Positions 19,374-59,403 of a stretch of DNA of 64,000 nucleotides are shown here, piece after piece. The first letter of the stretch is position 1; each line of letters starts with the position of its first letter. The DNA is from Hysterangium stoloniferum (Eukaryota > Basidiomycota > Agaricomycetes > Hysterangiales > Hysterangiaceae). The notes under the pieces are model-generated. The model worked only from the letters and a program-made list of their open reading frames with translations. It ran no database searches and had not been told where the DNA came from. The position numbers and the translations under genes were made by a program. The stretch lies in assembly GCA_015178975.1 (NCBI GenBank), contig WHVD01000011.1:434001-498000 (forward strand). Direction: 5' to 3'.

Positions 19374-20555
19374 TGGCCCTCCAATCATCTGTTATACTTA
19401 GTATAAAGTCTTTCTCATGTATGCTACAGTTCTTTAGTTTGAAACTCAACCTGACCTAGATTACCCTCCTCTTGTTTAAGTCCTCTTACATTTCTCTTAA
19501 TACTCTTTATTCTACAACTCTTAGTATTTTTGGCCCTTCCATTGATTGAGCTAAGTGTTGTCTTTAGTCTTTATTGTACTATCTGCTCTGTTTGAAATAC
19601 TGGAGTACCCTAACAGTTTATGTGAGGGTGCAACACATACATTGAAGCCAAGGTCTACTTTGTCTTATAGAATTGGACCCTCCAATTAGTATGATTCACC
19701 ATTTTTGGACCTCTGAAATCATCCCCTTTTACCCCCCTTGTTAGGACCAGACAACCCACCAGGCTCCGGACCCCATCTTACATGCACCTGACTCTCTACA
19801 ACAGGTTACAGTTAACCGGAAAACCTGACTCTTTACCCATCAAGTTGAAGTTCACAACTGGACAACCTGCTAGGACCCAGACATCAAACCTATCAATGAC
19901 TGACCCTTTGTGTCTCATGCACCAGTCATCAGAATACCTGGTGGGACCTGCATATGTCAACCCTGTCTATATATGACTCTGTCCCAAGCACCAGTTCACT
20001 GGACTATGCCCAGACAACCCGTCAGCTCTCTAACGGAGCCCTATTCCCATTATGGTCAAATGACCTATCATGTTTTGGACCCCACTCCCATTCCATTCTG
20101 TCCCTAACACCTAGTTTGGTGTTTACCACTCTCATTTCATGATTACCTGTTTTGTCTTTAATTACTACCAGATTTGGTATTGCATACATTCCACAGTCTA
20201 TATCCTAGCAATGTTTGTACATACAATCTGGTCAGAAAATCAACTTAGTTCTCCCCAGTAACTTAGCATATATTCTGTTCTATCTCTCATCCTTGAATCA
20301 TAATGCTATCGACCTTGTCAGAGCCCATGGGCTTTCTGACCGACCTCCCAACCTATCACCTATCACCTATCAACCTACTGACTGCACCCAGACTCCCCAG
20401 ATTTTCCATCCACCTGTCTGAAATTGGACACCACAATCTTGTGAGGGTGCAGCCTATAAGCTGAAGCCAAGTCCTACCGGATTATCCATGGGTTTCTCTG
20501 GAAATTGTCTACTAAGCCTGCACAACCCTTAACACCCCTTTCTTAGATCTTAACA
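19374..20555 (+). mobile_element. Old LTR-B copy split by a younger solo LTR
   Basis: 19374-19738 plus 20540-20555 match the reverse complement of 25885-26260, ending CTTAGATCTTAACA. The interruption is the solo LTR-A at 19739-20534. The copy is CpG-poor and carries the LTR core motif (ACATTGAAGCCAAGGTC near 19640). It is an LTR-retroelement fossil with no coding part attached. Confidence 0.65.
19739..20534 (+). mobile_element. Solo LTR-A (796 bp) with 5-bp TSD CCCCT
   Basis: Starts TGTTAGGACC and ends CCTTAACA (TG...CA), flanked on both sides by CCCCT (19734-19738 and 20535-20539). It carries the core motif TATAAGCTGAAGCCAAGTCC near 20455. The clean TSD shows insertion into the older LTR-B copy. 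Confidence 0.8.
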
Positions 20556-48274: not shown

Positions 48275-48845
48275 TGTTAAGATCTAAGCTAAAAGGGGAA
48301 AGGAGGGCTCTGAGTTGGGGGTCTGATGATATGAAACAAGCTAATTGGGAGGCTGACAATAGAGATTGTGCTAGTTGGGAGGTCCAACTCTATAAATGTA
48401 ATGGAGCTTGGCTTCAACTTATGTGTTATGCCCTCATACAAACTATCAGGGTGCTCTGGTATTTCAAACAGAGTGAATAGTATGATAGAGACAAAGTTCA
48501 GTACTTAGCTCAATCAGCTGGGGGGCTGAAATACTAAGAGTCATGAAGTAAGAGTTCATAGCTTGCTGAGAATGTCTTTGGGGATATTGAGAATGTAGGA
48601 AAGGGACTGGGAACTAATAGAGGGTAATCTAAGTTGATTCAAATGGGAGGCCACCAAGAAGAAGCAAGTAATCATGAAACAAGATGAGTAAACACCAAAC
48701 TAGGTATTAGGAATGGAATGGAACAGAGGTGGAGTCTGAATCATGACAGGTCATTAGACCATAACAGGAATGGGGCTCAGTTAGAGAGCTGGCGGGTTAT
48801 CCAGGTGGAGCCTGGTGACTGGTGTGTGGAACAGGGTTGGACATA
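48275..48845 (-). mobile_element. LTR-B copy, reverse, beside a coding relic
   Basis: Starts TGTTAAGATCTAAGCTAAAA and carries the reverse core motif GGAGCTTGGCTTCAACTTAT near 48405. Directly to its right lies the coiled-coil/cysteine relic at 48850-49613, so this LTR reads as the 3' LTR of a minus-strand element. The right boundary is approximate; fossil. Confidence 0.6.
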
Positions 48846-48849
48846 GACA

Positions 48850-49613
48850 GGCTCCTATATTGGGCTCCACTCACTGCTGCCCAAATCTTGGTGCAGCGGG
48901 AGGAGCAGTGTTGACAAAGGGAGGAAGTAAAGAAGAATGCCAAAGAGGCTGAGGAGGACTTGGAGAGGGAGTACCAGGTGGCACTGACTGCAGAGAAAGA
49001 GGCTGAGGAGCAGAGAAAGAGAGATGAGGAGGCATGGGTTGCCATGGAACATGCTAAGGCAGCTGTGGAGAGGTCTGCAGTTGCCACAGGTAAGTCCAGC
49101 AATTCACCTAATCGAAACCTTACTGACTTTTGGTTTCTAGCACAAAGTGGTAGCAGCCAAGTCTGAGTCTGAGGGGGAGCCAGAGAGCCTTCAAAAGGTA
49201 AGTCTCGGGCCCATGGAGGTTTCTGGGTACTGACCACACTAACAGAAAACAAGGAAGGTGGCTCCAGTCTGCCTGGAGGTGAAGAACGACCCACAGTATT
49301 CTGGCTGTAACGACTGGAATACAGAATGTTACTGAAAGTCCAGATGGGGACCAGGCTGTTGGCTGTGTGCACACCTCAAAGTAAGATGCTCACTGGTTCA
49401 TGAGCCCATGGGATCTGTGACATGAGAAGCGGGTTGCTCAGACAGGCTGGGGGGCTTGGAGGATGTTTTGGGGTGGATAGCCATGGGCATAGAGGCCCAG
49501 AACCAGTTGCTTGAAGAGAGCAACCAGATTGTGTTGGAGATGCTCCAGGGGCTCTGCAGGGAGTTCTGGGCATCCTTAGCTGAGTATGGTGGGCATGTGT
49601 TGTGAGGAGTATG
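48850..49613 (+). pseudogene. Relic of an antisense accessory gene of an LTR element (coiled coil plus Cys cluster)
   Basis: Separate pieces on the plus strand, left unjoined here: a charged coiled-coil frame (48960-49090; EREYQVALTAEKEAEEQRKR), acidic SESEGEPESLQK near 49160-49197, a C-x6-C piece and a C-x2-C-x6-C piece in the interval about 49308-49392, and a helical tail IEAQNQLLEESNQIVLEML (about 49490-49550). GT-AG-like borders separate the first pieces. The order (coiled coil, cysteine cluster, helical tail) and the position just inside an LTR in reverse orientation match the antisense frames of the 51.9-59.4 kb chromovirus. The relic is broken and old. Confidence 0.5.
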
Positions 49614-51369
49614 CTTTTACCACAGTTTCATTATGGTAAAACACTCCTTTTATTTTATTTATATTTTACACATTTTATTCATATTTTTCTATTCTTTATA
49701 TTCTTCGAATATTGCACCATTTCATTAGTTCGAAGCTTTGTGTATACTTGTGGGTGCACTCGGCACCAAATGAAACTCAGACACACTTTTACCCAAGCAC
49801 CACCACTTGTAAGACATAAACTAGGTCTATAGTGAGTGGTGATCAGGGTAACATGTCAGCTACCACATAGGTAGCATTATCTGAGCTATCTAACACTTCA
49901 GGCCTCAAACTATAGCAGTCGAGGCCTCCACTCGAATCATCCATCTTCCCATTCTACTCATTTCTTCATATATAGAATGGTCAGAACTTCTACCACTCTT
50001 CACAGTGGTGATCCGGTGTAGAGAGTTCAATTGGAAAGTAACCTATATGGCAATAGTTTCAAGTCACATCACAAGCACAAATTCTTATATATACTTTGGC
50101 ACTCAAGATGACTTCTACACAGCCAAATCAGTTTCATCAAACAGACGACCAAAACTCCATCATGTTCAACACTACATCGTCCTCCAAAGTAACCCTCAGT
50201 TCCTACTCAAAACCGACTCTTCACTCCCAAATAGAACTCCAGCCAATAACATCTCGTTTCTCCTCATCCTCCGACATCATTCCCAAGCCCCTACCAGCCC
50301 ACTCATGCTCCTCCAAGAAATACCATCATTTCCTCCGTCGACAAGGTATTTGACTCCCATATGCTCCAGATGATCCTGCCTTCATTCGTATAGAACACTA
50401 TGATGGCTCCTCCGAAATCCTCCACTATCGATTCAATCGAGTATTCCAGCAGGACTGTTCCCCACTGTCATTGGGAATCTGTTACATGGCAACGTTCACT
50501 CCAATAGGAGATCACAGAGGACCCAAGTTATTAATGACCCTGGTTCCAGAGGGAAGTCAAGTAGAGCCTCATCGAGGTCGTCATCAATTCATGTTCCTTG
50601 CTTGGTTGTGGAGCCTACTCACCACCTGGTTCTAAAATGGTGATTGATTGTGTCCCCTCCTTATACTGCAAAAACTAGGAACACAATACATCCAATCTCG
50701 GTTCATCAATTGGTAATATTGTCAAGATTTTGAAATCAAGCATAGCATTTGAGGGTGATGCATTATCATGGGATTCTTGAGTGTTTCTGACTCATATCAT
50801 CAATGTTTCATCAGCCATCACTTCTATTACTCCATCATCCCTATTGTCTGACTCACTCCCCTATTGTTCTATTGTGTTTCCCCATTTATCCGTATCACAT
50901 GTCTGATCTCATCTTTTGTTTGTCATTCTCTTATTGTTCAGCGCAGCCTCCCCCTATTATTGTTCACAGCTTTACTAACACTCCTATTGTGATGACTCAG
51001 AGATGACACACACCATATCACATCATTATTGTGTTGTTGTTTGTAGATGTTTGATTTGACCTGTACTCTCTCATGTATATAAGGGCCTCTCTTTTGCCCA
51101 CTATTGAACAAGCAATTTCGTTGTATCTCATTTTGAAGCTCATTCTTAAGGACAATCTCTTAAGTCTTACTCTCAGTCTCACTCCTACGACCAGTAAGGG
51201 ATACTGTAGTGTCTCTTATTGTTGAAGTTCTACACTCCTCGACATTAGGCTTATGTCAGCCTTTTGATATCATCTTCATTTACATTATCCAAGGTCCGAT
51301 CTCTAGCCTCTCACTACGAGTGTGTTTGGTTATAGACTGGTTTTGTCACAACCGTCACATGTCACATAT
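49614..51369. other. Repeat-derived sequence, class unresolved
   Basis: Holds a Ser/Thr-rich frame (50096-50353) and a promoter-like area (about 50993-51230) with TGATGACTCA, TATATAAGGGCC and a pyrimidine-rich leader that could be an LTR of another family. I found no reverse transcriptase or integrase motif here. Confidence 0.35.
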
Positions 51370-51800: not shown

Positions 51801-51867
51801 CGTCATAAAGACTTGACCATTGTGTGCAGGTTATTAGGTATATTCCTAGTAACGAACTTACACCAGG

Positions 51868-52452
51868 TGTTACGACCCGTTCCTGGATGTTTCAATATCC
51901 GACTTCCAGTCTCCCACTCCCGACTTCCGATCCCTGACTTCCGACTTTGACCTCCGACTACGGAACATCATAGTTACCGTATCATCCGCATTCTTCCCTT
52001 GTTCCGCATTTGGTAATTTGTCCGTTGACAAGTATTCACTCGTTTGTTTGTTATATTCCTGTTACAGAATATTGCCTTCCTAATATGTCTTATTGTATTT
52101 CCATTTTAAGAACACTTCCATTTCCGTCTTATTATGGTCTTAGTTTGTAGTACAATAACGAGCAGACTTATATTAGTTTCCGCGAATTTGTACTTTACCT
52201 TAGATCTGATATTGACTTAGTTTCTTATTCCTTCTCCCGTCTTTCTGTACGCTCGATATTCGGAACTCTTCGGAACTCTGAATATCCATAACTCCCATCA
52301 TAAGTCTCACCTCCGAAATTAAGGACATTGAGCGTTTGCGTAGAGGCGCAGCACATAAGCTGAAGCCGACGTCCTGACCCTATCTAGTAGTTCCCGACTT
52401 CCCGGTGACTTCCCGATAGTTCCGGAATAAGTTCCCGACATGGCACTTAACA
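51868..52452 (+). repeat. 5' LTR of the chromovirus (585 bp)
   Basis: TGTTACGACC ... GCACTTAACA. Contains the LTR core motif GCAGCACATAAGCTGAAGCC at about 52350, roughly 85-100 bp before the LTR end. Confidence 0.93.
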
Positions 52453-52486
52453 GTATATCAGATCTCAGCTCTGCGACTCGCTCATC

Positions 52487-53713
52487 ATGGGTCCCAAACG
52501 CAAAGCTGCCGAAGGACCATCCCAACTTCAATCCCCGTTGCAACTTTACACCACTCAACCTGAAACCCCAATTCAGCCGACAACATCAGCTTCAGTCGAA
52601 GAAGTTACCGAGGAGGTTACCGAGGTAACAAAGGATCCCAATGTTCCCCACACTTCCAACAACGAAGCAGAAGATCAGCCGGAGACATCGAAAAAGAAAT
52701 CTTCCGACGAACCGACTGAAATGTTGTTTATCAACTCCATTGTGAAATTCGCTGACTATTTGAAATCCGCTGAGGATAGTAAAGAATCATCCCGCACCGG
52801 AGTCAAAGAACCCGAACCTTTTACCGGCAAGGATCCGAAAAAATTGAAGAATTTCCTTCTCCAATGCCATTTCAGTTTCCGTGATCGACCCAATGCTTTT
52901 AAATCTGACAGTCGAAAAGTCAATTTTGCGCTCTCTTATCTCAAGGATACCGCTCAGGATTGGTTCGAACCCGGACTATCCGGAATATCCGACGAGACAC
53001 CCGTATGGCTCGACGACTGGGATGCTTTCGTGGAAAAACTGGAAACTAATTTCGGACCTTACGATCAATCCGGCGAAGCAGAAAATGAACTAATGATGCT
53101 CAAGATGAAGGACAATCAACGAGTTTCCGATTATCTCGTCAAGTTCAATACCCTCGCCGCACGATGTGGATGGGACGATTCCGCCCTCAGGCACCATTTC
53201 TATATGGGACTTCCGTCACGCTTTAAAGATGAAATCTGCAAAGATGGAAAGCCAAAAACTCTCCAACTCATGCGGATGAAAGCTCAAACATCCGATGCCC
53301 GTTATTGGGAACGAAAAGCTGAGGTTTCTCGAGAGAACCCGACGGAACGTTCTCAGAACAACAAGGCATCGACTAGCAAGTCTTCCGGCAACAACTCAGG
53401 CAATAATACCGGCTCTGGCACTAATACTGGCAAATCAAATTCCGACCGGAAGAAAGACAAGAAATCCAACAAGGAGAAACAGTCAACTTCCGACAAACCC
53501 GACATTTCCCATTTGTTGGGTACCGACGGTAAACTCACCCCGAAGGAGAAACAACGGCGTATGGACAACGACCTCTGCCTTTTCTGCGGAAAAGGTGGAC
53601 ACAAGGTTTCCGACTGTACCGTTAAATCTAGCTCTTCCAAGGCTCGCGCGGCAACTTCCACTACGACTACAACGTCTAAGGAAAAACCCGCCACGGAGTC
53701 GAAAAAAGAGTAA
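52487..53713 (+). CDS. gag: gag of the chromovirus (408 aa)
   Basis: Structural protein. It starts MGPKRKAAEGPSQLQ, 35 nt after the 5' LTR. The retrotransposon-gag capsid-like core runs about residues 100-260 (VKEPEPFTGKDPKKLKNFLL, YLKDTAQDWFEP, MMLKMKDNQRVSDYLVKFNT). A Ser/Asn-rich linker is followed by one CCHC zinc knuckle, CLFCGKGGHKVSDC, near the C terminus, and a Ser/Thr tail. Length is usual for the family. Pol follows after a short gap. Confidence 0.9.
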   Translation: MGPKRKAAEGPSQLQSPLQLYTTQPETPIQPTTSASVEEVTEEVTEVTKDPNVPHTSNNEAEDQPETSKKKSSDEPTEMLFINSIVKFADYLKSAEDSKESSRTGVKEPEPFTGKDPKKLKNFLLQCHFSFRDRPNAFKSDSRKVNFALSYLKDTAQDWFEPGLSGISDETPVWLDDWDAFVEKLETNFGPYDQSGEAENELMMLKMKDNQRVSDYLVKFNTLAARCGWDDSALRHHFYMGLPSRFKDEICKDGKPKTLQLMRMKAQTSDARYWERKAEVSRENPTERSQNNKASTSKSSGNNSGNNTGSGTNTGKSNSDRKKDKKSNKEKQSTSDKPDISHLLGTDGKLTPKEKQRRMDNDLCLFCGKGGHKVSDCTVKSSSSKARAATSTTTTTSKEKPATESKKE

Positions 53714-53749
53714 GCAACCCTCCGGAATCTGCACGGACAGAGGGTTGCG

Positions 53750-56700
53750 TTGACTCTCTCCGTGTTTCCGAGGTTATCCGCCTCAACGCGTCTGCTCTCT
53801 CTAATCCCGATTCATTATTTGTAAAACTCGTCTCTGACTTTCTTGGAAATTTAGTGTTCCGAGCTCTAATAGATTCTGGCTCCACACACTGTTTTGTAGA
53901 TACCACCTTTACCACGAAACATAATCTGAAACTCCATTCTGTTCCCGCAATTTCCTTACGTTTGTTTGACGGCACTAGCAATACGGCAATTACTCAAGCC
54001 TGCGACATGTCTATCCGGTTCCCTTGTGGAACATCCCAGACGGTTACCTTTTTCGTAACACAGTTGGACTCTAGCTGTTCGGTAGTTCTTGGATACAACT
54101 GGCTCACCCGATATAATCCGTTGATTGACTGGGTATTGGGCAGTATTACTTTCCGGACTCCCCACACTTCCGTTCCTCCTGCAGCATCTTTTCCGGCCAA
54201 CGCCTTTTCGGCATCAACGGCACCTCCGGCTTCTACCGAAACTTCCGAGCCTCCAAAAATCTCTCTCATCAATGCTTCGGCATTTGTTAGGGCGAGTAAA
54301 CTGGATGGTTCGCAATGTTTTTCGATCAGCTTAAAAGTTGATGAAGCATCTGGTCGTTTTGCGACTCCAGAATTATCTGAGCTAAAAGCCGACCTGGAAG
54401 GAGTTCCCGAAAAATACCATGATTTCGCGGACATTTTCAGTAAGCAAAAAGCTGACAGGCTTGCACCACATAGGCCTTACGACTTAAAAAATCGATATTG
54501 AGCCCGGTTCAAACCCTCCGCTAGGACCTATTTACCCATTATCCCAATCGGAACTTTCGTCTATTCGGGAGTTCCTGGATGAACATTTGTCGATAGGTTT
54601 TATCCGTCCCTCAAAGTCTCCGTATGGAGCACCCATCCTTTTCGTCCGTAAAAAGGATGGCTCCCTTCGACTCTGTGTCGATTTCAGAGGATTAAATTCC
54701 ATCACACGGAAAGATAAGTATCCACTGCCACTCGTTACCGATTTACTCGATGCCCCACAGAAAGCTTGGATTTACACCAAAATAGATCTCAAACACGCCT
54801 ATCATTTGGTCCGAATTGCCGAGGGCAACGAATGGAAAACTGCTTTTTGGACTCGCTATGGATCCTTTGAATGGTTGGTTATGCCATTCGGCCTTACCAA
54901 CGCCCCTTCCGCTTTTCAATGTTTTGTTAATGATATATTTTCCGACATGCTTGACGTATGTGTTATAGTCTATTTGGACGACATTTTGGTATTTTCCGAG
55001 GATCCCACTCTTCACGATGAACAGGTCCGTGAAGTCTTCCGAAGACTCCATAAAAACGGTCTTTTCGCCAATGGTAAAAAATGTTATTTCGACATGGATT
55101 CTATTGAATACTTAGGTTTCATCATCGGCCCTGATGGTCTCCGTATGGATGAAACCAAGGTTCAAGTTGTCCGTGACTGGCCCAAACCACGGAAGGTCAA
55201 GGACATTCAATCATTTTTAGGTTTCGCCAACTTTTACCGTCGTTTTATTCGGAACTACTCGGATATTACAGTACCGCTCACTCGTCTTACCCGTAAAACT
55301 CAACCATGGGTTTTTGACGATAAATGCCGCTCCGCCTTCCAGACTTTAAAAAATGCTTTCACTTCTGCCCCGATCCTTTCCCATTGGAAACCTGATGTTC
55401 CGATTATTGTGGAAACCGATGCTTCTGATTATGCAATTGCCACGATCCTTTCCATTCAAGATTCCGATGGTGAAATTCATCCGGTCGCATTTCTTTCTCG
55501 GACACTTTCAGTATCTGAACTCAATTACGACGTTCATGATAAGGAACTTTTGGCTATTTTTGAAGCTTTCAAACATTGGCGCCATTATCTCGAAGGTTCT
55601 GCAACTCCCGTTGACGTTGTTACCGATCACAAAAATCTCGAATATTTTTCTACCACTAAACTTTTAACCCGCCGGCAGGCCCGTTGGTCTGAATTCCTTT
55701 CCGCTTTCAACATGATTATCCGTTTCCGACCCGGACGTCTTGGTGGAAAGCCAGATGCCATGACTCGACGATGGGACATCTATCCTAAAGAGGGGGAAAG
55801 TAACTACGCTGTTGTTAATCCGCATAACTTGAAACCGGTTTTTACAACGCAACAACTTTCCGCATCTATCCGAGCAACTTCCCTTTACTATCCAATTATG
55901 CGTAGCATCATGATTATGGACATTGAGCAATTACATCAAGATATCCTTTCCACACTCACTTCCGACCTGGCCCTCAAGCCACATTTAGACGTTCCCGACA
56001 ATCCCGACCAACCCCGATGGTCACAAGACTCTCAAGGTTTTATCCGTCTCGATGGACGTATCTACGTTCCAGATTCCGACAATCTCCGACTCCGCGTACT
56101 TCAGTATAAACACGATCATCCAATCTCCGGACATTATGGCATCAACAATACTCTTGGTTTAATCCGTAGAGAATATACTTGGCCCAACCTCCGAGATTTC
56201 GTAACTCAGTTCTGTAAGTCATGCACCACCTGCTTACGCTCCAAAACCCAGAGGCATAAGCCGTACGGCCTTCTCAAGCAACTCCCGATACCAGAAAAAC
56301 CTTGGAATTCAATTTCCATGGATTTTATCGAACAACTCCCGACTTCCGAAGGCTTTACATCCATTCTAGTTGTTGTGGACCGATTCTCGAAACAAGGCAT
56401 TTTCATACCCACTCATGATACAATCACGTCCTTACAATTAGCGGAACTTTTCATTATTCACGTATTTTCCAAACACGGAGTTCCATCTCACGTAACTTCC
56501 GATTGAGGCTCCAAGTTCGTCTCCCATTTCTTCCAGGCCCTCGGAAAAGCCCTCGACATGAAACTACACTTCACCTCGGGATATCACCCGGAAGGTGATG
56601 GACAAACGGAACACGTTAATCAAACACTGGAACAATATCTCCGCATCTATTGTAATTACCAACAGGACAACTGGAAATCCCTTCTTCCGATCGCGGAATT

Positions 56701-57400
56701 CACCTACAATAACTCTCCGAATGCAACCACCGGCATATCTCCCTTCTTCACCAATAAAGGCTATAATCCGAATCTCACAGTACATTCCGAACGAGATTTG
56801 GCTTCTGTCCGTGCTCAAGAATTTATTACCGATCTCGACGAATTACATCAAGAACTTCGGAAAGCTATTTCTTCCGCACAGGAATATTATCAACGTTCCG
56901 CAGACAAAAACAGGATCCTGCCTCCTAATTTTAAAATTGGTGATCAGGTTTTTGTAAAAGCTCAATTCTTCTGTACTACCCAACCGTCTAAAAAACTCGC
57001 TGAGAAATTCTTAGGACCTTTTGAAATTATAGCACAAGCCGGTTCACTTTCATGGACTCTCCATCTTCCCGACAGTATGCGAGCAGTCCACCCCGTTTTC
57101 CACGTTTCCATGTTAGAACCTTGTGTTTCTAACTCATTCCCGGAACATATCCAACCTCCGTCCCCTCCGGTCATCATTGATGGAGAACCCGAATTCGAAG
57201 TTTCCGAAATTTTGGATTCTAAAATCGACAATCGCCGACATACTTGTAAATTGCTCTATTTAGTTAAATGGGCAGGTTATGAAGGTACCGACGAGGAAAC
57301 TTCATGGATATTGGCCATGGAACTTGGACATGCTATGGAAATTGTTACTGACTTCCACACGGCTTATCCAGGCAAACCCGGACCTTTATCATCACTCTAA
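53750..57400 (+). mobile_element. pol: pol region of the chromovirus
   Basis: Parts in order: aspartic protease (about 53860-54110, ALIDSGSTHCFVD); reverse transcriptase (about 54590-55150) with YPLPLVTDLL, MPFGLTNAPSAFQ and the catalytic YLDDILVFSED; RNase H (about 55380-55700, ETDASDYAIATIL, HDKELLAIFEAF); integrase (about 56090-56960) with the HHCC zinc-binding segment, MDFIEQLP and the GYHPEGDGQTEHVNQ block; a GPF-type module (EKFLGPFEI); and a C-terminal chromodomain (about 57190-57340, LLYLVKWAGYEGTDEETSWI). The region is nearly whole, with about two breaks. Confidence 0.92.
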
Positions 57401-57486
57401 TCTTTCTGTTCTTTTCTGTTCAGTTTCTGACACTTCCGTTTTCACACTCGTTTTAGGTTTTGCAAGTCAAAAAAATATTATTAAAT

Positions 57487-58116
57487 CTATCTCAAAGTCT
57501 CTGACACCCCAAATCCACCTTCTGTCCCAACTTCCGGCTCTTCAGCAATTTCCGCACTTTCCACCATATCCTGTACCTCTTCATCTTTACTCTCTGATTC
57601 TTCCGGCCCTTTTCCCGACACCCACCTCTTTTCAACACATTCCGCCAACGGATCATTAGTTTTTTCCCGTACCTTATCGGAAAACCCCTCGGATACTGCG
57701 ATTACACCAATGCTAACCATTATCTTCTCCAGGAAATTGTTTTGCCTTCGGAAATTCCGGACCAATGAACGGAAACCTTTCTCCTGGATATCATTATGGC
57801 GATCCATTGTATCCCGCATTTTCATGACTTCTGTCCCGATAAAAACCAACGCGTCGACGGTTTCCTTGAGAAGCTCAATGCCTGTACTATCTGTTTTCGA
57901 CGTTTCAGTTTCCGTAGCTTTGGCCGCTCCTGAACTTCCCGCATCGTTAGTTTTCGGAGTCTTCTCACCTTTCGGAACCCTTTTTGAGGCAAGGGTGCAC
58001 GGAAGTTTGAGAACCGTGCAGGGATAGCAAGTTCCGCCCCATTTTACCTTCTGTTTCCAACACGTCATGTTCCATATGGAACATCGATAACACGGAGTTT
58101 CGTGGACGACTTCCAT
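57487..58116 (-). CDS. Antisense ORF with Zn2Cys6-like cysteine cluster (209 aa)
   Basis: Encoded on the strand opposite to gag-pol, between pol and the 3' LTR. Residues 9-40 carry six cysteines spaced C-x2-C-x6-C-x10-C-x2-C-x6-C, exactly the spacing of fungal Zn(II)2Cys6 DNA-binding domains. The basic residues typical after the second cysteine are few (CYRCSIWNMTC), so DNA binding is not assured. A basic patch (SKRVPKGEKTPK) follows, then a Ser/Thr-rich linker, a predicted helical region (about residues 80-140; LLKETVDALVFIGTEVMKMR, RSLVRNFRRQNNFLEKIM) and an acidic tail (EESESKDEEVQDMVESAEIA). It is not a standard part of Ty3/gypsy elements. Function unknown; regulation of the element or of chromatin is a guess. 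Confidence 0.6.
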   Translation of the reverse strand: MEVVHETPCYRCSIWNMTCWKQKVKWGGTCYPCTVLKLPCTLASKRVPKGEKTPKTNDAGSSGAAKATETETSKTDSTGIELLKETVDALVFIGTEVMKMRDTMDRHNDIQEKGFRSLVRNFRRQNNFLEKIMVSIGVIAVSEGFSDKVREKTNDPLAECVEKRWVSGKGPEESESKDEEVQDMVESAEIAEEPEVGTEGGFGVSETLR

Positions 58117-58257
58117 TCGTTCCGGAGCTTTGACCCTTGGTTTCTGTTTCGGAAGTTAAACGACTACCGTTTCCTTTACAGATGCACTCACTTTAGGACT
58201 CAAAGGTCCAGCTTCACCCTTTACGTCCACCTCCACGGCTTTTCGCTGCATCAATAG

Positions 58258-58629
58258 TTATCGGTTGGAATCACGGAATGTATGGGTCAAACCTACCTTT
58301 CCTTCCCTTATCTCCTTCAGTTTTTCCGCCACCTCCGACTCCCGCTGTAATCTTTCCACCTCCTCTTTCTTTTTCTGCGCCTCCGCCGTTTTCCGTATCC
58401 ATGCTTCTTTTTCCGCCTTCGCCCGCTCCAATTCCCGCTTTTCCGCCTCCTCCGCATCCTTCAACTCCTGCATCAACGCTCTTTCCTCCTCCTCCTGTCG
58501 TCGCTTCAACTCCTCCATCTTCTGGCGTTTCTGTTGAAGTTCTGCGACCTTCGACATCTTTTGAAGTACGGATGTTTCGGTATCTGAGTCTTCCGGGGTA
58601 GTGATGAACAACGGCCGACGAATCGACAT
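58258..58629 (-). CDS. Antisense coiled-coil ORF (123 aa)
   Basis: Starts MSIRRPLFITTPEDSDTETS about 190 nt inside the 3' LTR border, reading away from that LTR. Residues about 25-105 form one long charged helix (LQQKRQKMEELKRRQEEEER, AEEAEKRELERAKAEKEAWI) predicted to be a coiled coil, with no globular motif. It lies upstream of the cysteine-cluster frame on the same strand; the two are reported separately. The 3' LTR, acting in reverse, or the short segment before it would have to supply the promoter. The purine/pyrimidine bias of GAG/AAG codons also creates meaningless long frames on the other strand. Confidence 0.55.
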   Translation of the reverse strand: MSIRRPLFITTPEDSDTETSVLQKMSKVAELQQKRQKMEELKRRQEEEERALMQELKDAEEAEKRELERAKAEKEAWIRKTAEAQKKKEEVERLQRESEVAEKLKEIREGKVGLTHTFRDSNR

Positions 58630-58813
58630 ACAAGTTGTGGTTGAAGAAACAAAAACGTTAATTCGAATATTTGGAGGTTTTTATACTCAGAATAACAGCC
58701 GAAACTCTCACCTCCATATTTGCGTAAATTTCACGACACATAACAATCAGCCGTCGCTTCAAACACTTAGTACCTAATCGCCTCTATGGGATTTCGGCCT
58801 AACAGGGGGGTAC

Positions 58814-59398
58814 TGTTACGACCCGTTCCCAGATGTTTCAATATCCGACTTCCGGTCTCCCACTCCCGACTTCTGATCCCCGACTTCTGACTTTGACCTC
58901 CGACTACGGAACATCATAGTTACCGTATCATCCGCATTCTTCCCTTGTTCCGCATTTGGTAATTTGTCCGTTGACAAGTATTCACTCGTTTGTTTGTTAT
59001 ATTCCTGTTACGGAATATTGCCTTCCTAATATGTCTTATTGTATTTCCGTTTTAAGAACACTTCCGTTTCCGTCTTATTATGGTCTTAGTTTGTAGTACA
59101 ATAACGAGCAGACTTATATTAGTTTCCGCGAATTTGTACTTTACCTTAGATCTGATATCGACTTAGTTTCTTATTCCTTCTCCCGTCTTTCTGTACGCTC
59201 GATATTCGGAACTCTTCGGAACTCTGAATATCCGTAACTCCCATCATAAGTCTCACCTCCAAAATTAAGGACATTGAGCGTTTGCGTAGAGGCGCAGCAC
59301 ATAAGCTGAAGCCGACGTCCTGACCCTATCTAGTTGTTCCCGACTTCCCGGTGACTTCCCGATAGTTCCGGAATAAGTTCCCGACACGGCACTTAACA
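58814..59398 (+). repeat. 3' LTR of the chromovirus (585 bp)
   Basis: TGTTACGACC ... GCACTTAACA, same length as the 5' LTR and about 97.6% identical by my count. Same core motif at about 59296. Confidence 0.93.
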
Positions 59399-59403
59399 CC
59401 AGG

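Follow-up and report, generated by a model that had tools for sequence, protein, structure and literature searches.

The stretch of DNA analysed here, a 64-kb window from Hysterangium stoloniferum, contains at 51868-59398 a full-length chromovirus in which gag, reverse transcriptase (RT), RNase H, integrase and a chromodomain are recognised. Its 5′ LTR (51868-52452, plus strand) matches the paired 3′ LTR (58814-59398, plus strand) at 571 of 585 positions; both copies begin with TGTTACGAC and end with CTTAACA, and a 5-bp target-site duplication, CCAGG, lies at 51863-51867 and 59399-59403. The gag gene (52487-53713, plus strand) is recognised by Retrotrans_gag at 7.4e-14, with a weak zinc knuckle, while pol (53854-57400, plus strand) encodes RT, RNase H, integrase, an SH3_Tf2-1 domain and a chromodomain, for which a scan from RT onward gave RVT_1 at 1.6e-34, SH3_Tf2-1 at 2e-19 and Chromo at 6.4e-6. 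A G-run directly before the 3′ LTR (58805-58810, plus strand) is the presumed polypurine tract. An initial reading of the sequence, the first-pass annotation, had described a complete-length Ty3/gypsy element, and this is borne out by the LTR pair, the target-site duplication and the gag and pol domains. In the window copy pol is broken, with frames ending at 54501 and 56506, and the gene that runs against it is open.

This gene had been noticed as two minus-strand frames between pol and the 3′ LTR, both of which are found where they had been placed. They had been taken as separate genes, but two introns, with an exon of 18 codons between them, connect them into one reading frame, and as read from the sequence the minus-strand exons 58629-58297, 58245-58192 and 58143-57487 are one gene with a predicted product of 347 residues. 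A TATAAAA box (58679-58685, minus strand) stands 56 nt upstream of the ATG at 58629. Exon 1 (58297-58629, minus strand, 333 nt) encodes 111 residues of a charged helix and is followed by intron 1 (58246-58296, minus strand, 51 nt, phase 0), which runs from GTAGGT to GCAG. Exon 2 (58192-58245, minus strand, 54 nt), beginning RKA and ending SPK, is in frame with both neighbours, and intron 2 (58144-58191, minus strand, 48 nt, phase 0) runs from GTGAGT to ACAG. Exon 3 (57487-58143, minus strand, 657 nt, 218 residues) carries a cysteine cluster followed by a predicted helix and closes with a stop codon at 57487-57489. All junctions being in phase 0, a single 347-residue product contains both the charged helix and the cysteines. 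The gene is convergent with pol, the two stop codons lying about 86 bp apart.

Recurrence, constraint and divergence

The search covered the window's own genome, 111 Mb in 554 contigs. With the cysteine-containing frame of this element, here assigned to family A, 722 candidates were found at first look, and all of the 150 that were scored matched, down to 71% identity. A search with the pol end brought up further elements with pol ends 82-83% alike. Three of these, the fetched copies of family B (L067-L069), all have the same gene in the same place, in the order TATAAAA, charged exon 1, intron, RKA..SPK exon, intron and cluster, with the TATAAAA 57-58 nt upstream of the ATG in each. A search with SH3_Tf2-1 led to six further elements, five of family C and one of family D. 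All five fetched family C copies (L077, L079, L080, L081, L082) have the same three-exon gene in the same place, with TATATAAAA upstream of the ATG; one of them, L079, has lost a cysteine of the cluster. Exon 2 begins with RKA in 3/3 copies of B and 4/5 of C, and with RKV in L082. First-look candidates numbered 493 for B and 1341 for C, with 150 scored for each. Among the 150 listed C matches 19 are identical, the query included, so family C has probably been active recently.

The single fetched copy of family D (L078), of another gypsy type, shows no such antisense frame in its 2.2 kb. A second D locus (L085, C441:1416272-1419200) holds 2929 bp of pol that are open for 976 codons, contain just one CpG (observed/expected 0.01) and lack CGG, and the D 3′ region has a ratio of 0.53; from its composition, the family D element looks like one that avoids CpG. 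The window also holds a decayed remnant of a C-like antisense gene (48858-49602, plus strand; 57% identity in exon 3), in which splice sites are still legible and the cysteine pattern is gone; CpG observed/expected is 0.12 over 48600-49700 around it. Pieces at 19963-20228 and 48670-48850 of the window resemble the 3′/LTR part of family C.

Seven A-type pol ends were chosen because they lacked a neighbour among the listed matches to the antisense gene; three of them have the region, two are internally deleted and two align in part. The deleted copies (L070 and L071) are A-type, 97% and 94% alike across some 0.2 kb on the side of pol, and have lost about 0.85 and 0.76 kb internally, including most of the antisense gene. 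Three A-type copies (L072, L073, L074) align over the region although they fall outside the scored list, the 218-residue frame of L073 being open, and listed copy numbers are thus lower bounds.

The structure of the gene was followed through 58 family A copies, what was left of 66 loci once L001-L008 were dropped as duplicates. They comprise the 30 best protein matches and 28 further entries, all 28 listed as stop-free, so that open-frame counts from this sample are biased upward and the choice of best matches may lower dN/dS somewhat. The TATAAAA box and the exon 1 ATG are each kept in 51/53 covered copies. Intron 1 retains GT..AG in 52 of 53 usable copies (exception L047; lengths 50-55), leaving out L051, which is disrupted upstream, and the uncovered L061, L063, L064 and L066; intron 2 does so in 56 of 57 (exception L057, with L015 left out) and measures 47, 48 or 49 nt in 12, 42 and 3 copies. 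Exon length changes are multiples of three in 46/52, 56/57 and 55/58 copies for exons 1, 2 and 3, and stops occur in 22/52, 5/57 and 5/58, respectively, the exon 1 counts excluding L023, which is cut by a contig end. In an unpicked genome listing of the 209-residue cysteine frame, 114 of 150 matches are stop-free and 36 have a stop. Family A copies show C-to-T change at 0.159 in CpG and 0.043 at other C, and among exon 1 copies of whole-codon length 19 of the 22 stops are TGA; together these indicate that some exon 1 stops are probably post-insertion decay. The CpG decay pattern further suggests that the host methylates element copies.

The genomic RNA carries the introns in reverse orientation, so they cannot be spliced out of it. 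That they are conserved suggests selection acting through a spliced antisense mRNA, and two introns kept through retrotransposition would point to such an mRNA under selection even if nothing were claimed about binding.

Third codon positions are the most variable in the antisense frame in all three exons of the family A copies, and the median pairwise dN/dS comes to 0.212 in exon 1, 0.148 in exon 2 and 0.233 in exon 3. Values lie at 0.62-1.37 in the two alternative frames of that strand and at 0.94-1.46 in two frames of the opposite one. The remaining, mirror frame gives 0.09-0.37, as predicted where third positions overlap; it has many stops in exons 1 and 3 and none in exon 2. Within one set of 41 copies dN/dS is 0.203 for the pol end, 0.210 for exon 3 and 0.241 for exon 1, or 0.109, 0.148 and 0.132 in the same order when CpG codons are removed. 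Exon 3 gives 0.238 among the five family C copies. Coding constraint on the antisense gene is like that on the pol end. The sequence part of the check that the first-pass annotation had proposed, recurrence together with dN/dS below 1, has come out in its favour: the gene recurs in hundreds of places and three families, with dN/dS of about 0.2.

These data bear directly on two readings that would deny the protein a role. One is that the antisense RNA itself matters, through double-stranded RNA or non-coding regulation, as has been suggested for plant elements in the accessible part of one source (PMC7264820); the convergence of the two genes, with about 86 bp between their stops, fits this. 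It is contradicted by the codon-position bias, the dN/dS, the indels mostly in threes and the cysteines kept across families, and we regard it as very improbable. The other, which we would put slightly lower still, is a passively carried host gene fragment or chance frames. Retained introns are what captured genomic DNA would show; against this stand hundreds of listed copies in three families and the constraint measured in A and in the five C copies, and of 76 matches to the zinc-cluster profile Zn_clus listed in the genome none coincides, on comparison by eye, with a listed A, B or C copy.

While constraint within families resembles that on pol, divergence between them does not. Families A, B and C are 81-84% identical in pol, 23-32% in exon 3 and 27-40% in exon 1. 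Synonymous sites of pol are near saturation between families (pS 0.68-0.70), and dN between families comes to 0.11-0.13 in pol, against 0.77-1.01 in exon 3. With similar constraint within families and a higher dN between them, the antisense gene diverges seven to eight times faster. In the single comparison of an A with a B protein, BLASTP aligned only the cluster, at E 4e-4.

The cysteine cluster and its flanking helices

The six cysteines in exon 3, spaced C-x2-C-x6-C-x10-C-x2-C-x6-C at 57997-58092 (minus strand) as first noted, are confirmed. Even in a loose form the pattern has a single match in the six frames of the window, and it is absent from 60 random sequences, each of 64 kb, drawn from a first-order Markov model. 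Spacing is 2-6-10-2-6 in families A and B and 2-6-9-2-6 in C, where the linker is one residue shorter. The fungal Zn(II)2Cys6 domain has the range C-x2-C-x6-C-x5-12-C-x2-C-x6-9-C, within which all three clusters fall. Across 25 aligned sequences from the three families four cysteines, a glycine shortly before the fourth cysteine and a lysine in the second triad are invariant, and the remaining two cysteines are almost so.

The likeness to Zn2Cys6 regulators proposed in the first-pass annotation thus holds for the spacing and fails at family membership, as no score in A, B or C reached the Pfam gathering cut-off of 21 bits for PF00172 (Zn_clus). The best was 11.9 bits, in family C, where three of five copies were scanned. 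In family A 23 of 42 members gave weak matches, with a best E of 0.69, and the one family B copy scanned, of three, gave none at E 1. The sole zinc-cluster match in the PDB, PPR1, is not significant (E 3.8), and its six cysteines align with those of the cluster. AlphaFold pLDDT is below 50 across most of the cluster in A and all of it in C, neither model resolving the fold, and a PDB fold search with the second model gave no match. A circularly permuted Zn2Cys6 domain had been suggested by the second half of Zn_clus (profile positions 16-31) matching the first triad; it was dropped, as half-clusters scanned separately gave nothing and PPR1 aligned in the normal order. Scans against NCBIfam gave nothing useful, those of IMG/VR with the A alignment and the C exon found no relative, and domain scans of the antisense protein found no bZIP family. 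Elsewhere in the genome, several frames on contigs C56, C115, C309, C37, C85 and C209 have two or three Zn_clus matches each and are possibly a family of tandem zinc-cluster proteins.

Exon 1 encodes a long charged helix, with 56% charged residues in A, 54% in B and 44% in C. It had been called a coiled coil, a description that its 3.5-residue periodicity does little to sustain: this was reached by 79 of 2000 shuffles in A, 1791 in B and 967 in C, and is therefore weak in A and absent in B and C. A stronger coiled-coil candidate is the helix that closes exon 3, with 0/2000 shuffles in C and 50/2000 in A, the two families tested.

Family-specific words containing CGG

Fungal zinc-cluster proteins bind CGG triplets as monomers or dimers. 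The family A element holds 92 copies of CGGAA/TTCCG where dinucleotide shuffles give 24.5, and the LTR stretch 58814-59400 holds 12 where 1.9 are expected. Density is 8.9-20 per kb in the tabled parts of the element except 58630-58813, and 1.6 and 0.4 per kb in the stretches outside it. The exception is the antisense promoter stretch, which has no copy of the word where other element parts have 9-20 per kb. The 3′ regions of the other families yielded different words, GGCCGA and CGGGGCCG in B and GCGGAG, CGGAGTCC and CGGACTCC in C, all with CGG on one strand.

Part of this excess lies at synonymous sites. Against shuffles of synonymous codons, which hold the protein and its codon usage fixed, the A word occurs 17 times in RT-IN where 8.0 are expected, 10 times against 2.9 in the pol end and 13 times against 5.4 in exon 3, counts reached by none of 1000 shuffles in each case; the excess is weaker in gag (23/1000), the protease part (137/1000) and exon 1 (183/1000). 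The B and C words were taken from 3′ regions and then tested in a separate stretch, pol. Shuffles reaching the count of a family's own word in pol were 0/400 for CGGAA in A, 0/400 for TCGGC in B, and 2/400 for CGGAG and 0/400 for CGGAC in C. The words of other families stay at z of 1.7 or less (in A, CGGAG 1.7 and CGGAC 1.5), with TCGGC in excess in B only and CGGAA in A only. The four control frames, window frames of 198-422 residues taken as host genes, show no excess of any tested word.

The pattern is not uniform. Three of the B 3′ words have no clear excess in B pol (CGGCC, z 0.7; TCGGCC, 1.5; CGGGGC, 0.8), GCGGAG is weak in C pol (z 1.8) and CGGTA is raised in both B and C pol. Other words outrank the families' own in pol, namely GGAAA in A RT-IN, TCGCA and CCGAA in B, and CACGG and CCACG in C. 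In LTR densities the pattern is seen in A and C and is less clear in B, whose LTR has CGGAA and TCGGC at equal density. Family D is a confounded negative control for the words, since its pol is nearly free of CpG and has no CGG at all. Each gene-bearing family is nonetheless enriched for its own CGG word, also at the synonymous sites of pol, clearly in A and C and more weakly in B.

Paired CGG triplets were also counted. In C, CGG-N5-CCG occurs 11 times in pol against 1.65 and CGG-N3-CCG 8 times against 1.75 (0/300 each), and the latter 4 times in the LTR against 0.55 (1/300). In B, CGG-N3-CCG occurs 4 times in pol against 0.58 and CGG-N2-CCG 3 times in the LTR against 0.22 (0/300 each). With 26 arrangements examined in each stretch, an isolated excess of a few counts carries little weight. 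In family A neither pol nor LTR is enriched for paired CGG, and across the whole A element direct CGG-N6-CGG occurs 19 times against 6.9. Shielding of the CpGs in the words by a bound protein was considered and dropped, as their decay in A is 0.104 against 0.111 for other CpGs (p 0.96), with no sign of protection.

The words themselves could have another origin if the protein were a transposition cofactor acting in nuclear import, chromatin targeting or particle assembly, with RNA packaging, nucleocapsid binding or a host factor giving rise to the words. A role at the RNA level would produce the sense-strand bias seen in A (60 against 32), and nuclear roles have been proposed for plant antisense ORFs in the available part of one report (PMC7264820). 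The A word is nevertheless present on both strands, the words differ although the pols of the families are about 82% alike, and every word holds CGG, the zinc-cluster half-site, so that we judge this cofactor unlikely, though worth serious attention.

The main rival, beside which the cofactor stands, is a self-limiting repressor of the kind represented by HBZ, the bZIP protein of a retrovirus, which is spliced, regulatory and repressive. The antisense protein would bind the LTR or host factors, stop sense transcription and so limit copy number, and the antisense promoter signals and the words in the LTR fit it equally well. Constraint like that on the pol end and retention in many copies are easier to understand for a factor that helps spread, and copies that have lost the gene exist (L070, L071); neither point is decisive, and in our estimate such a repressor is improbable to about the same degree as the cofactor.

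A putative self-targeting regulator and its known counterparts

The spacing of the cluster, the helices that flank it, the family-specific CGG words and the family-specific protein together point to self-recognition. Transcription of the antisense gene, of which the TATA box and splice sites are indirect signs, would start from a TATA promoter of its own near the inner edge of the 3′ LTR and run opposite to gag-pol; with both introns removed, the mRNA would encode about 350 residues, comprising a charged helix, a zinc-cluster-like domain with six cysteines and, at the C-terminus, a second helix. The cluster would bind zinc and, probably as a dimer, recognise the CGG words of its family, and the protein would thereby find its own family's DNA. 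Once bound it may counter host silencing or activate its own family, which is the least certain step. We give about even chances to an element-borne, self-targeting DNA-binding regulator of this kind, comparable to VANC, in which binding and anti-silencing are proposed by analogy. The more elaborate proposal of a self-recognition code is tentative and somewhat less probable. By it, the spliced zinc-cluster protein would bind CGG words in an arrangement particular to its family, the code would change along with the protein, words would be held all through the element and even at synonymous sites of gag-pol, and the outcome would be sequence-specific anti-silencing or self-control. The family-specific words lend indirect support to the suggestion, made in the first-pass annotation, of a DNA-binding protein that controls the element, while the binding itself is something we infer from sequence.

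The question bears on how LTR retrotransposons evade host silencing without harming the host. If the self-targeting regulator is real, the direction of anti-silencing and its specificity could be tested by swapping proteins and LTRs among A, B and C, three families that share one genome, and it could explain why antisense genes persist between pol and the 3′ LTR in plants and fungi.

The proposed link to Zn(II)2Cys6 regulators (PF00172; PPR1, GAL4) lies in the cysteine spacing and in the CGG words, which contain their half-site. The antisense protein differs from them in scoring below the Pfam cut-off, and the basic residues of their first half are largely missing in A and C. Like HBZ of HTLV-1, an antisense-encoded nuclear protein as described in the available part of one paper (PMC11963269), the gene is an antisense accessory gene of a retroelement; unlike HBZ, its product has no recognised bZIP family.

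The gene had also been put forward as a new type of LTR-element accessory gene, a view that cannot be kept in that form, as antisense genes between pol and the 3′ LTR are known in plant Grande, RIRE2 and Retand and in fungal Boty from the accessible portions of two papers (PMC7264820, PMC11963269). In plant Ty3/gypsy elements the aORF-3R, represented by Grande gene23, RIRE2 and Retand TRP28, is antisense and lies between pol and the 3′ LTR; the same portions describe it as kept in most copies, with its own promoter in Grande and a protein that is nuclear or possibly DNA-binding (PMC7264820, PMC11963269). Compared by description, families A, B and C share the frame antisense to gag-pol in this position, and differ in being fungal chromoviruses whose antisense gene keeps two introns and encodes a cluster of six cysteines, and in having CGG words particular to each family; the main text of Vicient 2025 contains no word beginning "intron". 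Among fungi, Boty-like elements of Botrytis cinerea have an additional antisense gene, brtn (Zhao 2011), as reported in the available parts of PMC7264820 and PMC8365987, and the likeness, again by description only, is that of a fungal element with an extra antisense gene. A literature search, mostly of titles and the starts of abstracts, brought up no account of a basidiomycete element with an antisense zinc-cluster gene. The kind, an LTR element with an antisense accessory gene, is known; what is new here is that the gene is spliced, its product has a zinc-cluster-like domain, and the DNA words vary along with it.

The closest analogy in mechanism is outside the retroelements. The VANDALs of Arabidopsis are DNA transposons. 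Their VANC proteins are a family in which, according to the accessible parts of two papers, related proteins act on different element sets, bind short words concentrated in their own elements, and lower methylation (PMC5735166, PMC10398659). VANC words are mainly non-coding and often tandem repeats, as far as the available part of one of these papers goes (PMC5735166), unlike those of the fungal elements, which are scattered and also coding. Anti-silencing is demonstrated for VANC, and would for the fungal antisense protein follow by analogy. The likeness is that of a fast-diverging, element-encoded protein paired with dense family words, with a mechanism proposed to be alike; of these VANC-type traits, rapid protein divergence is seen here, and so are family-dense words, clearly in families A and C and weakly in B.
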